Below are positions 27,826-32,215 of a stretch of 38,281 nt of DNA, piece after piece. Source of the DNA: Alphaproteobacteria bacterium (GTDB lineage: Bacteria > Pseudomonadota > Alphaproteobacteria > UBA9219 > RGZA01); NCBI GenBank assembly GCA_021732145.1, contig JAKFVN010000025.1:1-38281 (forward strand), in the 5' to 3' direction. Below the pieces are notes generated by a model. That model ran no database searches. It saw only the letters and a program-made list of their open reading frames with translations, and was not told the origin of the DNA. The position numbers and the translations under genes were made by a program. Numbering within the stretch: the stretch's first letter is position 1; every line of letters begins with the position of its first letter.

Positions 27826-28131
27826 TTAATCGTCGTCGCCGTCGCTCGCATCTTTGCCGTTCAAGCGGTCACGAAGCTGCTTGCCGGTTTTGAAAAATGG
27901 AACGGTCTTGCCAGCAACGGAAACGGTTTCACCGGTGCGCGGGTTGCGGCCGGAGCGCGCTTCACGTTTCTTAATCGAGAATGCACCAAACCCGCGAAGC
28001 TCCACGCGGTCACCGCGCGTGAGAGCAACCGTAATTTCTTCGAATATCGTGTTTACGATACGCTCGACATCTTTCTGCATCAGATGCGGGTTCTTCTCGG
28101 CGAGTTTTTGAACCAAATCAGAACGTGTCAT
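27826..28131 (-). CDS. ihfB: Integration host factor subunit beta
   Basis: IhfB pairs with IhfA to bend DNA at specific sites, affecting transcription, replication and recombination. The 101-residue protein has the HU/IHF fold: N-terminal helices [20 protein letters not shown] and [20 protein letters not shown], the sheet [20 protein letters not shown], and the DNA-intercalating beta arm [20 protein letters not shown] with the key proline. The IHF-beta type is indicated by MTRSDLV and RNPRTGE. The acidic tail (DASDGDDD) is an addition. Upstream lies a dense set of related short repeats that may be operators. Confidence 0.94.
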
Positions 28132-28140
28132 GGGCAGCTC

Positions 28141-28282
28141 ATCGGTTTAAACAGCGGTTGTAAACAGCATTATTTTACGCATAGGGGAATTTTTCCCTAT
28201 ACTTCAATAGTTTAAACCGATTATGGCATGCCCCGCAAGCCCTGTTTTCGCAAGGTTTAAGCCGATTCAATAGCTTAGACCG
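28141..28282. repeat. Cluster of five related GTTTAAACCGAT-like sites upstream of ihfB
   Basis: ATCGGTTTAAAC (28141-28152) and GTTTAAACCGAT (28210-28221) are perfect 12-base inverted copies. GTTTAAGCCGAT (28255-28266) matches at 11 of 12 positions. GCGGTTGTAAAC (28154-28165) and CTTAGACCG (28274-28282) are weaker copies. TTCAATAG precedes both the copy at 28210 and the weak copy at 28274. A hairpin with ATAGGG/CCCTAT arms (28181-28200) lies between. The region separates gltA (end) from ihfB (start) and must hold the ihfB promoter. Confidence 0.6.
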
Positions 28283-28285
28283 CTT

Positions 28286-29683
28286 TTAGGCGACGTCTGT
28301 GGCGCGTTTTGGAGCGTCCACGCCACCTGTCAGTGTGCCTCGTGCGCTATCGCCATTTGGTCCGCGTGTTTCAATCGCAGGGTATGGGCGTTGCTCTGGG
28401 CCAGTGTAGTTCTGACGTGGGCGGCCAATGGTCAGTTTTGGTGCATTCACCATTTCCTGCCATTGCGCAATCCAGCCAGAGGTACGCGCAAGCGCGAACA
28501 ACGGCGTAAACATCTGCACAGGGAACTTCATCGCAGAGAGAATAATGCCCGAATAGAAATCCACGTTTGGATAAAGCTTTCTATCCTTGAAGTACGGGTC
28601 GCTTAACGCAATACGTTCCAACTCCTTGGCAACTTCCAACAACGGGTTGGACACACCAAGACCAGCCAGCACGCTATCGCAATCGGCTTTAATAATATTG
28701 GCGCGCGGGTCAAAGTTTTTATAAACGCGGTGACCAAAGCCCATGAGCTTGGTTTCGCCGCCTTTAACTTTAACTGCTGCGATAAATTCTGGAATTTTAT
28801 CAACGGTGCCAATGCCTTTAAGCATCTTGAGCACAGCTTCGTTCGCGCCGCCATGGGCGGGGCCCCATAATGCAGCAACACCGGCAGATAGCGCCGCATA
28901 AGGCTCGGTTCCTGTGGAGCCCGCCAAGCGTACGGTTGATGTGGATGCGTTTTGCTCATGGTCAGCGTGCAGGATGAATACGCGGTCCATTGCCTTGGTT
29001 AGCACATCGTTTTGTACGTAATGGCCTGATGCATCAGCAAAGCACATGCGCAGGAAGTTTTCCGAGTAACCCAATTGGCTGCTTGGGCGGATAACAGGCT
29101 TACCTTGCGAATAACGCTGCGCAGCGGCAACGATGGTTGGAATTTTCGCAATCAGGTTGAGTGCAACTTCATAACGGCCTTCGGGCTTGCTGGTATCAAT
29201 ATCGCTATGAAAGCCGCTAAGGTCGGTGACCATGCTGCTGACCAATGCCATCGGATGCGTATCGCGCTTATGGCGGTCAAGAATGCTGAGCAATTGTTCG
29301 TGAACAGGCATACGTGAAACAATATCTGCTTCAAATGCTTTAAGCTGTTCGGATGTTGGCAACTCGCCCTTAAGCAATAAGTAAGCGGTTTCCATATAGC
29401 TGCCATTGGCAATTTCTTCGATAGGGTAGCCGCGATACAGCAGAATGCCTTTATCGCCATCAATATAAGTAATCGCGGATTCAGTTCCTGCGGTGGATGT
29501 ATAACCCACGTCATAGGTCATTACGCCAGCGCGTTGAAAAAGGCCGGTAATATCAACAATGCGCGCATCACCAATGCTGTCGCGGCGAATGGGCAAATCA
29601 AAAACTTCATTGCCAATCTGCAAACGGGCAGTGCCGGGATTTACATTATCTTGTGATGGGGCGGGCTGTTTTGGATCGGCCAT
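28286..29683 (-). CDS. gltA: Citrate synthase
   Basis: GltA condenses oxaloacetate and acetyl-CoA to citrate, the entry step of the TCA cycle. The 465-residue protein is of the hexameric, Gram-negative type: RRDSIGDARIVDIT and GYTSTAGTESAITYIDGDKG near the N-terminus, then the catalytic residues in HADHEQNASTSTVRLAGSTG, GPAHGGANEAVLKML, KLMGFGHRVYKNFDPRANII (His and Arg), and the Asp in YPNVDFYSGI near 375. About 25 extra residues at the C-terminus (to ATDVA) are rich in Gly and Ala. AGGAG precedes the ATG. It seems to be transcribed alone from the promoter at 29727-29754. Confidence 0.96.
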   Translation of the reverse strand: MADPKQPAPSQDNVNPGTARLQIGNEVFDLPIRRDSIGDARIVDITGLFQRAGVMTYDVGYTSTAGTESAITYIDGDKGILLYRGYPIEEIANGSYMETAYLLLKGELPTSEQLKAFEADIVSRMPVHEQLLSILDRHKRDTHPMALVSSMVTDLSGFHSDIDTSKPEGRYEVALNLIAKIPTIVAAAQRYSQGKPVIRPSSQLGYSENFLRMCFADASGHYVQNDVLTKAMDRVFILHADHEQNASTSTVRLAGSTGTEPYAALSAGVAALWGPAHGGANEAVLKMLKGIGTVDKIPEFIAAVKVKGGETKLMGFGHRVYKNFDPRANIIKADCDSVLAGLGVSNPLLEVAKELERIALSDPYFKDRKLYPNVDFYSGIILSAMKFPVQMFTPLFALARTSGWIAQWQEMVNAPKLTIGRPRQNYTGPEQRPYPAIETRGPNGDSARGTLTGGVDAPKRATDVA

Positions 29684-29788: not shown

Positions 29789-32215
29789 TTATTCTGCTTT
29801 CACGCCGTAGCGGTTGCGCACATAGCCTTTGCTGGTGATTTTGCGGATTATATTAAGTGCAGCATCACTGGCTAAATTGCCTTCCTTGGGCAAATCGCCT
29901 TCGCGGTGGCCTTTACCAAGGCTATCGGGGTGTAAATCGGTTTCATGCACCTGCGCCAAATCTTCACGGCCCAAATATGAAATCGCCAATTCACGGAACA
30001 TGTAATCCAGTACAGAAGTGGAGGCGGTAATCATATCATTGCCTTCCACCATGCCGGATGGCTCAAAGCGCGTAAACGTAAACGCTTCCACGAATTCTTC
30101 CAATGGCACGCCATATTGCAGGCCGATGGAAACAGCAATCGCGAAGTTGTTGATGAGGGAGCGGAACGCCGCGCCTTCCTTATGCATGTCGATGAAGATT
30201 TCACCAATGCGGCCATCTTCATATTCACCGGTGCGCAAATACAGCTTATGCCCGCCAATCACGGCGCGCTGCGTATATCCTTTGCGGCGGTCGGGCATTT
30301 TGTTGCGGCTGACGCGGCGCGGCGCAACAGGTTGCGGTGCTGATTTGGGTTGCGTGGTTGCTGCTTGCGGCGCGGCTTCTTCAATAGTGCGCCATGCAGG
30401 GTCTAAGAGCCATGTGATACGACGAATGCCTTTTTCCTGAACAGCGATATGCAGGCTGGATAATTCCTGCGCCGATGTATCAACGGGCAAATGCAATTGA
30501 TAATCGCATGCGCCAAGCAGGAATGGCTGTGCAGCATGCAGTAAATCGATTTGGCATTGCACAGACAGCGCGGCGTTATCATCGCCATTCGGCTTTGATG
30601 TTGCGAACAGGCTTTCATGTTCTTTCTTTAACTGCGCGCAACCCGTAATACGCTGTGTGCCGCACACATGCTGGTTCGCGAGCTTAATCTCATCTTCGCT
30701 AAAGCCAAGGAAGGTGAGTAAATCAAAAGCGGGGTCACGAATAGCATCGGGGGTTAAGCCCAGCTTTCTAATGCAGAAACTTTCCCCAACCACCCACGGG
30801 CTGAATGCATGGCGGATGTGTTGCGCTTTCGATAATGCTTCTTCCAAACGTGTAATCGCCGCCGCATCAAAGCCGCGCACATGCAGCGCTGCTGGATTAA
30901 TTACAGGAGCATCATGTAATCCATGATGGCCAGCGGCATAACGTTCAATTTGTGCGATGTCATCGGGGTCATAGCCAAGCTTGGAAAGCCCTTCGATAAT
31001 CACGGGACGAACGCGTTGTTCCAAACGGCCATCCATCGTCCAGATGGTAATGACGTGGGAGGTGAGAGGATTGATGCTGGAGCTATCGCTATCAAACCAT
31101 TCATCGGCTTCGCGCATCGGCAAAATGCCGTTCAGGTACACATTGCGCATGCCGGTTTTTTCAATCAGGCTTAACGCTTCATCCCAAATCTTGCGGCTTT
31201 CTGCCACCAACGGTAATTCCGGTGCTTCACCGGGCTCCAGCGTGAAAATGTTCAACGCATTCTTCGTGCCATGAATGGCGATTTCCTGATTATCAAACAA
31301 TTCCATCAGCGCATCCTGGCGCTGCGTATAATCTGCTGATGCGCCTTTTTCCTGCGCAACCATTGCGGTGGTTTGCAATGCGCATGCGCTGATTTGCGCC
31401 ATGATGCCGGCAATGTAATGCTTGGCCGCCACGCTGTTATAGGCAATGCCTTGGCATGCCAAAAGGCTTGCGAAATTCGTCACGGTAATTCCGCCGCATG
31501 TGCCTTCATGCGTTGCGGTCAGAATATGCAGCGCAAGTGACCAGATGCGCGTTGCATGGCGCAGCAATTGCACATTTAAAAAACCATCATCGCGGCGGAA
31601 GGCGAGGAGGTTAAACGTAACGATAAAATCCGCCTTGGCATTTAATGCGCCATCCAGTGACCATAAATTATCCGCAACCTTGTTGATGATAATAGGCAAG
31701 TCGGTGGAATTTTCAGCTTCCAAACGCTGGGTTTGAATGCCATAGGCCCAATGCGCGCCAAAGCTTGCTAATAATGACAAATTTGGCACGGCAATCTGGC
31801 TGGCCAGCATCATGCGCAATTCGTCATAAAACGCGCGCGCATCATTTTCGCGGTTAAAGAAACTTTGCTTCCACCCTTCATAGGTCAGCGCGCCAACAAA
31901 ACGATCAAAGCTGCTTTTCGCGCTATGTTCGGTTGTAATATCTTTTTCAGCCGGGTTTGCAACCTTGGGCCACAGCCATGATGGAACGGTATTTTCTTCA
32001 ACCGTTTTCAAGGTGCGAGAGAAGGGAGAATTTAAAAATCCGTATTGCTTTAATGCGGTGACGCTGCGGCGGCTCCAATTCGCGGGAATTTCCAGAATGC
32101 CAGCCAGATTTCCATCTTCTTCATCGGGCGCATTGGCATCAAACGCCAGCGTAATAAATTCAAGACCCTGATAGGCGTCTTGATCTTTTTTAGTGAGCAG
32201 GCGCTCAATTCGCAT
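29789..32215 (-). CDS. NrdJ-like protein lacking the catalytic core, with TSCPD-type C-terminal domain
   Basis: The 808-residue protein is clearly descended from adenosylcobalamin-dependent (class II) ribonucleotide reductase, NrdJ, but it cannot be a normal enzyme. The N-terminus resembles NrdJ: KKDQDAYQGLEF, WKQSFF, ARAFYDELRMMLASQIAVPN and FGAHWAYGI (about 115-160). In the family roughly 350 residues then follow, with the first redox cysteine, the GTGTNFS loop, the finger-loop NPCxE and the NACNLASLNL block; here only about 40 divergent residues remain, and the last block reads ADFIVTFNLLAF. The PTGT phosphate motif is replaced by LPMREA near 366. The part around AQIERYAAGHHGL to HAAQPFLLGA (420-570) still aligns. 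The domain at about 645-745 (KGYTQRAVIGGHKLYLRTGE, IDMHKEGAAFRSLINNFAIA) is well kept. The usual Cys-rich zinc tail is missing. The frame is open throughout, so it is not a decaying pseudogene. Function is unknown. Confidence 0.85.
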   Translation of the reverse strand: MRIERLLTKKDQDAYQGLEFITLAFDANAPDEEDGNLAGILEIPANWSRRSVTALKQYGFLNSPFSRTLKTVEENTVPSWLWPKVANPAEKDITTEHSAKSSFDRFVGALTYEGWKQSFFNRENDARAFYDELRMMLASQIAVPNLSLLASFGAHWAYGIQTQRLEAENSTDLPIIINKVADNLWSLDGALNAKADFIVTFNLLAFRRDDGFLNVQLLRHATRIWSLALHILTATHEGTCGGITVTNFASLLACQGIAYNSVAAKHYIAGIMAQISACALQTTAMVAQEKGASADYTQRQDALMELFDNQEIAIHGTKNALNIFTLEPGEAPELPLVAESRKIWDEALSLIEKTGMRNVYLNGILPMREADEWFDSDSSSINPLTSHVITIWTMDGRLEQRVRPVIIEGLSKLGYDPDDIAQIERYAAGHHGLHDAPVINPAALHVRGFDAAAITRLEEALSKAQHIRHAFSPWVVGESFCIRKLGLTPDAIRDPAFDLLTFLGFSEDEIKLANQHVCGTQRITGCAQLKKEHESLFATSKPNGDDNAALSVQCQIDLLHAAQPFLLGACDYQLHLPVDTSAQELSSLHIAVQEKGIRRITWLLDPAWRTIEEAAPQAATTQPKSAPQPVAPRRVSRNKMPDRRKGYTQRAVIGGHKLYLRTGEYEDGRIGEIFIDMHKEGAAFRSLINNFAIAVSIGLQYGVPLEEFVEAFTFTRFEPSGMVEGNDMITASTSVLDYMFRELAISYLGREDLAQVHETDLHPDSLGKGHREGDLPKEGNLASDAALNIIRKITSKGYVRNRYGVKAE

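Follow-up and report, generated by a model that had tools for sequence, protein, structure and literature searches.

In the enteric arrangement, ihfB, the gene for the beta subunit of IHF, follows rpsA. The ihfB gene of Escherichia coli and Salmonella is autoregulated by IHF, as stated in PMC8942017 with reference to Aviv et al. 1994. The IHF consensus is quoted as WATCARNNNNTTR (PMC8421141), and most strong IHF sites are described as carrying an A-tract upstream of it (PMC8421141, PMC9519438). For the alphaproteobacteria, ChIP-seq and mutation are cited for IHF sites with essential TT bases at the gafYZ and gene-transfer-agent promoters of Caulobacter (PMC11150451). The sites described below resemble the latter in being alphaproteobacterial IHF-type sites with TT bases, here predicted from sequence, but the Caulobacter sites are concerned with activation of phage-like genes, not with ihfB. 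The literature searches made here listed no report of ihfB autoregulation in alphaproteobacteria, and no paper with both Micavibrio and ihfB.

The window analyzed here is a stretch of 38,281 nt from an alphaproteobacterial genome of 2.09 Mb (G000), in which ihfB and gltA, both on the minus strand, are separated by a gap of 154 bp (28132-28285). The best explanation of this gap, to which we give a probability of roughly 0.6, is an IHF-autoregulated ihfB promoter with two phased IHF-type sites, in a rearranged form that overlaps the promoter. Similar to the enteric systems, transcription of ihfB would be under IHF, with IHF-type sites in the promoter region. In contrast to them, the system is alphaproteobacterial, gltA rather than rpsA lies upstream, and there are two candidate sites about six helical turns apart, one of them over the -10 box. 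The kind of control is thus a known one (IHF-controlled ihf genes, E. coli), and the layout is a variant. The genes, and the features of the gap relevant to this reading, are:

27826-28131, minus strand: ihfB, IHF subunit beta, 101 aa (TIGR00988, 148.5 bits against a cut-off of 119.95).
28286-29683, minus strand: gltA, citrate synthase, the neighbor upstream of ihfB (NF004126, 599 bits against a cut-off of 505).
28202-28214, minus strand: proximal IHF-type site TAAACTATTGAAG, matching the consensus at 7 of 9 positions.
28265-28277, minus strand: distal IHF-type site TAAGCTATTGAAT, matching the consensus at 8 of 9 positions and lying 63 bp farther upstream than the proximal site.
28188-28194, no strand assigned: A/T tract beside the proximal site (plus strand AATTTTT), its AAAA columns invariant in all five family genomes.
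28211-28216, minus strand: predicted -10 box TTTAAA, read from the sequences, overlapping the proximal site.
28233-28238, minus strand: predicted -35 box TTGCGG (TTGACG in G001 and G004).
28179-28202, minus strand: hairpin TATAGGG/CCCTATG where the ihfB mRNA is predicted to begin, with the A/T tract in its loop.

Both IHF subunits are encoded in the genome, ihfA and ihfB exceeding their NCBIfam cut-offs. The family set consists of five genomes (G000 to G004), of which G002 is the sister of G000 (IhfB 98% identical), while G003 has a ribonucleotide-reductase gene, not gltA, upstream of ihfB. In the window itself, a protein of 808 aa (29789-32215) resembling B12-dependent ribonucleotide reductase aligns to PRK07562, a model of 1222 positions, over 489-1125 only and far under its cut-off, and appears to be a shortened or diverged form. 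A clear ribosome-binding site is not seen ahead of ihfB (28128-28142). The start of ihfB shares bases with a frame of four codons, ATGAGCTGCCCATGA, in G000 and likewise in G002, and G001 has an upstream ATG in frame with ihfB.

In an alignment of the five family genomes upstream of ihfB, one long invariant block stands out, TAAACTATTGAA, which lies in the proximal site, is identical in all five and is kept even in G003 despite the different upstream gene; invariant A's follow it at a fixed distance. A second element, TAAnnYATTGAAT, lies farther upstream in four of the five genomes, at 63 bp in G000 and G002, 64 bp in G001 and 65 bp in G004, and is missing from the ihfB upstream region of G003. 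The predicted -10 to -35 spacing is 16-17 nt in G000, G001, G002 and G004 (in the last with CATAAA as -10 box), and these box positions put the proximal site over the -10 box and the predicted start region. A generic consensus promoter scan did not report a promoter on the ihfB strand. We infer the promoter position and a repressive effect, the latter because the predicted -10 box and the proximal site share bases.

The shared core, TAA-N4-TTGA, is the reverse complement of the core of the IHF consensus (WATCARnnnnTTR). Scored against WATCAR-N4-TTR, the distal site reaches 8/9 and the proximal site 7/9, and 8/9 arises in ∼20% of shuffles of the region. The cores of the ihfB pair read TTCAA in place of the ATCAA of the consensus (T for A), and the YA preceding TTGAA is unaccounted for by the consensus. 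In a 434-kb sample of G000, intergenic TAA-Nk-TTGA is found 28 times with a spacer of four, against 5-13 times for other spacers (Poisson P about 9e-7), and the unselected next bases at TAA-N4-TTGA in G000 lean towards TW, matching the IHF consensus. This peak is weak in the sister G002 (14 vs 9.2, P 0.08), absent in G013 and G010, and not clear in repeat-rich G003. An unguided ranking of intergenic dyads, in which adjacent-trimer words prevailed, along with repeats in G003, placed TAA-N4-TTG outside the top 16 in G000, G002, G003 and G013. An A/T tract lies on the WATCAR side at ihfB in all five genomes, the proximal site carrying AAAAATT. Over 41 intergenic sites, positions 10-17 nt past the TTGAA side are A or T in 239 of 328 cases (0.73), against 190 of 328 (0.58) on the mirrored side; with G003 removed, the figures are 198 and 160 of 272 (34 sites). 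A search of 400 bp upstream of ihfA gave no TAA-N4-TTGA; the autoregulatory control could act through ihfB alone.

Relatives at the level of the order also show an IHF-like element at ihfB, typically AAAA-N11-CCAA-N4-TTA, separated from TTGAC by 12-14 nt in most cases. The element closely precedes the -35 box, and its A-tract keeps one register through all 17 alignable loci (20 order-mate loci were considered, of which two are without the core and one is incomplete). The form AAAA-N11-nnAR-N4-TTA occurs at the Azospirillum loci L090, L096 and L104, and at L087, L027 and L029; in the last three the element is 3 nt from the -35 box, about one helical turn below 13-14. Among 83 other alphaproteobacterial ihfB loci, mostly Rhodobacterales, six have the sense-strand A-tract element (L031, a duplicate of G004, and L078, a duplicate of L019, are counted within their groups in this comparison). 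The elements of the 17 order loci and of Azospirillum share with the family sites the CAA/TAA-N4-TTA geometry and the adjoining A-tract. However, they are single sense-strand sites upstream of -35 with CCAA, GAA or TAA cores, whereas the G000 layout has the opposite orientation, a TTCAA core and two sites, one on the -10 box. Several alphaproteobacterial lineages may keep an IHF-type element above the -35 box, for which this family has swapped in two opposite-facing sites six turns apart, one over -10, changing an upstream bend into an occluding, possibly looping, form of self-control; we offer this history only tentatively.

A further feature of the order relatives is a GANTC (CcrM methylation) site 25-60 nt before ihfB, present in 16 of 20 loci (L006-L019, L022-L026 and L030); in shuffles the mean is 2.1 and the maximum 6. 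In the window, GANTC is at 28264-28268; each of the five family genomes has it at a greater distance from ihfB, within or close to the distal site or the -35 box. Among 31 genomes searched, 29 have GcrA and 25 a CcrM-like RAMA domain, with G000 in both groups. Cell-cycle control of ihfB is possible.

The family motif is not confined to ihfB. TAAnnYATTGAA matches 26 places in G000 and 78 in the five family genomes together; the reversed pattern matches 3 and 22, respectively. Two sites within 1 kb occur only at the ihfB promoter, in the four genomes that have both. With the ihfB pair left out, 14 of the 24 other copies in G000 are intergenic, as judged by a simple coding-potential model, compared with 9% intergenic DNA (binomial P about 1.6e-9). 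In orthologous promoters of G000, G002 and G001 the motif forms a conserved island within diverging flanks: at fliL/flgF (three genomes), an rpoH-like gene of the sigma-70 family, flgI, coxB, a trxB-like gene and rmlB/mgtE (the labels rpoH, trxB and rmlB are readings of domain matches). At the orthologous sites of the sigma-70-family gene and flgI, the nn bases change and the remainder is kept. In G003, seven of ten places outside ihfB were inspected, and four of the seven look like copies of one repeat; the inspection covered none of the four non-ihfB places in G004. The intergenic DNA of G003 is rich in repeats, and its loci L268, L270, L272 and L274 form a repeat family that starts with TTAAATCATTGAAAAGACC and ends near TGAACATTCCGGGCAAGGTTG.

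Such a regulon-like distribution, with its conservation, would also be expected if TAAnnYATTGAA belonged to another global regulator of this family that controls ihfB together with the flagellar, rpoH-like, coxB, trxB and rmlB promoters. The YA before TTGAA, and the AT that follows it in many sites, exceed the IHF consensus and fit this alternative, as do seven other intergenic TAA-N4-TTGAA sites in the 434-kb sample that are without YA. We regard it as unlikely, given that the core, the N4 spacing and the side of the A/T tract match IHF, that it is an IHF gene which carries the doubled site, and that the ihfB genes of the order relatives have an IHF-like element. We are much more confident that the ihfB promoter has a conserved pair of regulatory sites, for IHF or another binder, than that they are IHF sites. 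IHF is probably the binder, and we go no higher because the per-site scores, the spacer peaks, the TTCAA and YA bases, ihfA, and the 6 of 83 loci count against it.

It could also be asked whether the conserved block is simply the -10 box and start region of a plain promoter, the other repeats being chance in A+T-rich DNA. The proximal block does overlap the -10 box, one site alone scores within chance against the consensus, and the exact word GTTTAAACCGAT, discussed below, is not conserved. A plain promoter nevertheless leaves the second site at fixed spacing in four of five genomes, and the genome-wide intergenic enrichment, without explanation, and is improbable.

The gap had been noted at first for GTTTAAACCGAT, of which the original prediction counted five copies in both orientations. 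A perfect 12-nt inverted pair is indeed present (28141-28152 and 28210-28221, 57 nt between), and two further copies lie at 28255-28266 (1 mismatch) and 28273-28284 (3 mismatches). The clustering is real but the number is four non-overlapping copies rather than five, because GTTTAAAC is its own reverse complement and the extra copies (28145-28156 and 28206-28217, each with 3 mismatches) share bases with the first two. The density, said to be far above chance, is so: when all 12-mers of the 154-bp gap were scanned in 150 dinucleotide shuffles, none gave three copies at ≤1 mismatch, one gave two exact copies, and three gave four copies at ≤3 mismatches. The proposed central hairpin was likewise found, as an inverted repeat between the paired copies, and the ihfB-sense RNA of 28132-28207 folds with z = -2.95 (-2.76 for the 5' hairpin in G002, -0.89 in G001). 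This 5' hairpin is not taken as the main feature because it is strong in G000 and G002 but not in G001; that at 28179-28202 may stabilize the ihfB mRNA.

Beyond the gap, GTTTAAACCGAT can be ruled out as a genome-wide motif. It has two exact matches in the 2.09-Mb genome, both between gltA and ihfB. At ≤2 mismatches there are 257 places against 162 for the reversed control; those looked at are the ones in the window and one-mismatch places outside it (8 of 17 rows, in 7 places), of which six fall within open frames and the seventh at the edge of a gene. Another word, TTTAAACTATTGAA, is also not enriched (13 vs 16). Exact GTTTAAACCGAT is absent upstream of ihfB in all four family relatives, G001-G004; the original prediction was to fall if the word was missing there and found nowhere else in the genome, and this is the outcome. 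In G002, the counterparts of the two exact copies are GTTTAAACTGAT and GTTTATAACCGAT, and G001 is without the start-codon copy. Two features of the gap hold copies of the word:

28141-28167, minus strand: CTGTTTACAACCG and CTGTTTAAACCG in tandem (about 13 bp), the source of the start-codon GTTTAAACCGAT copy.
28254-28266, minus strand: AATCGGCTTAAAC, which adjoins the distal site and is the one-mismatch copy of the original prediction.

The second unit of the tandem is CCGTTTATAACCG in G002, and the tandem is absent in G001. The likeness of AATCGGCTTAAAC to AATCGGTTTAAAC (28210-28222) is lost in both genomes. The conserved unit is TAAnnYATTGAA, overlapping the GTTTAAACCGAT copies in another register.

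A dedicated repressor that reads GTTTAAACCGAT, the operator array of the original prediction, would agree with four copies beyond what shuffles give, at this locus only. It is very unlikely, since the word is missing from four relatives and the start-codon copy fits a 13-bp tandem duplication not present in G001. The direction of that proposal, ihfB control, is retained, and GTTTAAACCGAT as the operator fails because it is absent from all four family relatives. Its other suggestion, a decayed repeat element, here taken as mobile or REP-like, is in keeping with the inverted copies that flank a hairpin but is scarcely credible, as a dispersed (REP/MITE-like) repeat has many genome copies and here there are no exact ones outside the gap, the sequence is position-conserved as a promoter, and Rfam has no match in the window. 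The region is a real regulatory region that was framed wrongly.

Under the preferred reading of IHF autoregulation, the two sites would be bound and bent by IHF, whose subunits come from ihfA and ihfB. Abundant IHF would fill the proximal site and exclude RNA polymerase from the -10 region, and this block would cap IHF's own synthesis. The distal site, ∼60 bp farther upstream, is on the same face of the helix, because 63 bp is about six helical turns, and could stabilize the complex or fold the promoter.

A repeated word spotted by eye can be the shadow of another functional motif. If the preferred reading is true, the locus would provide a ready test of a nucleoid protein setting its own level outside the enterics, with related genomes offering natural promoter variants, an upstream site versus a promoter-overlapping pair. 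It would also supply a candidate set of IHF sites for an uncultured group, comprising fliL/flgF, flgI, the rpoH-like gene, coxB, trxB, rmlB/mgtE and rimP.
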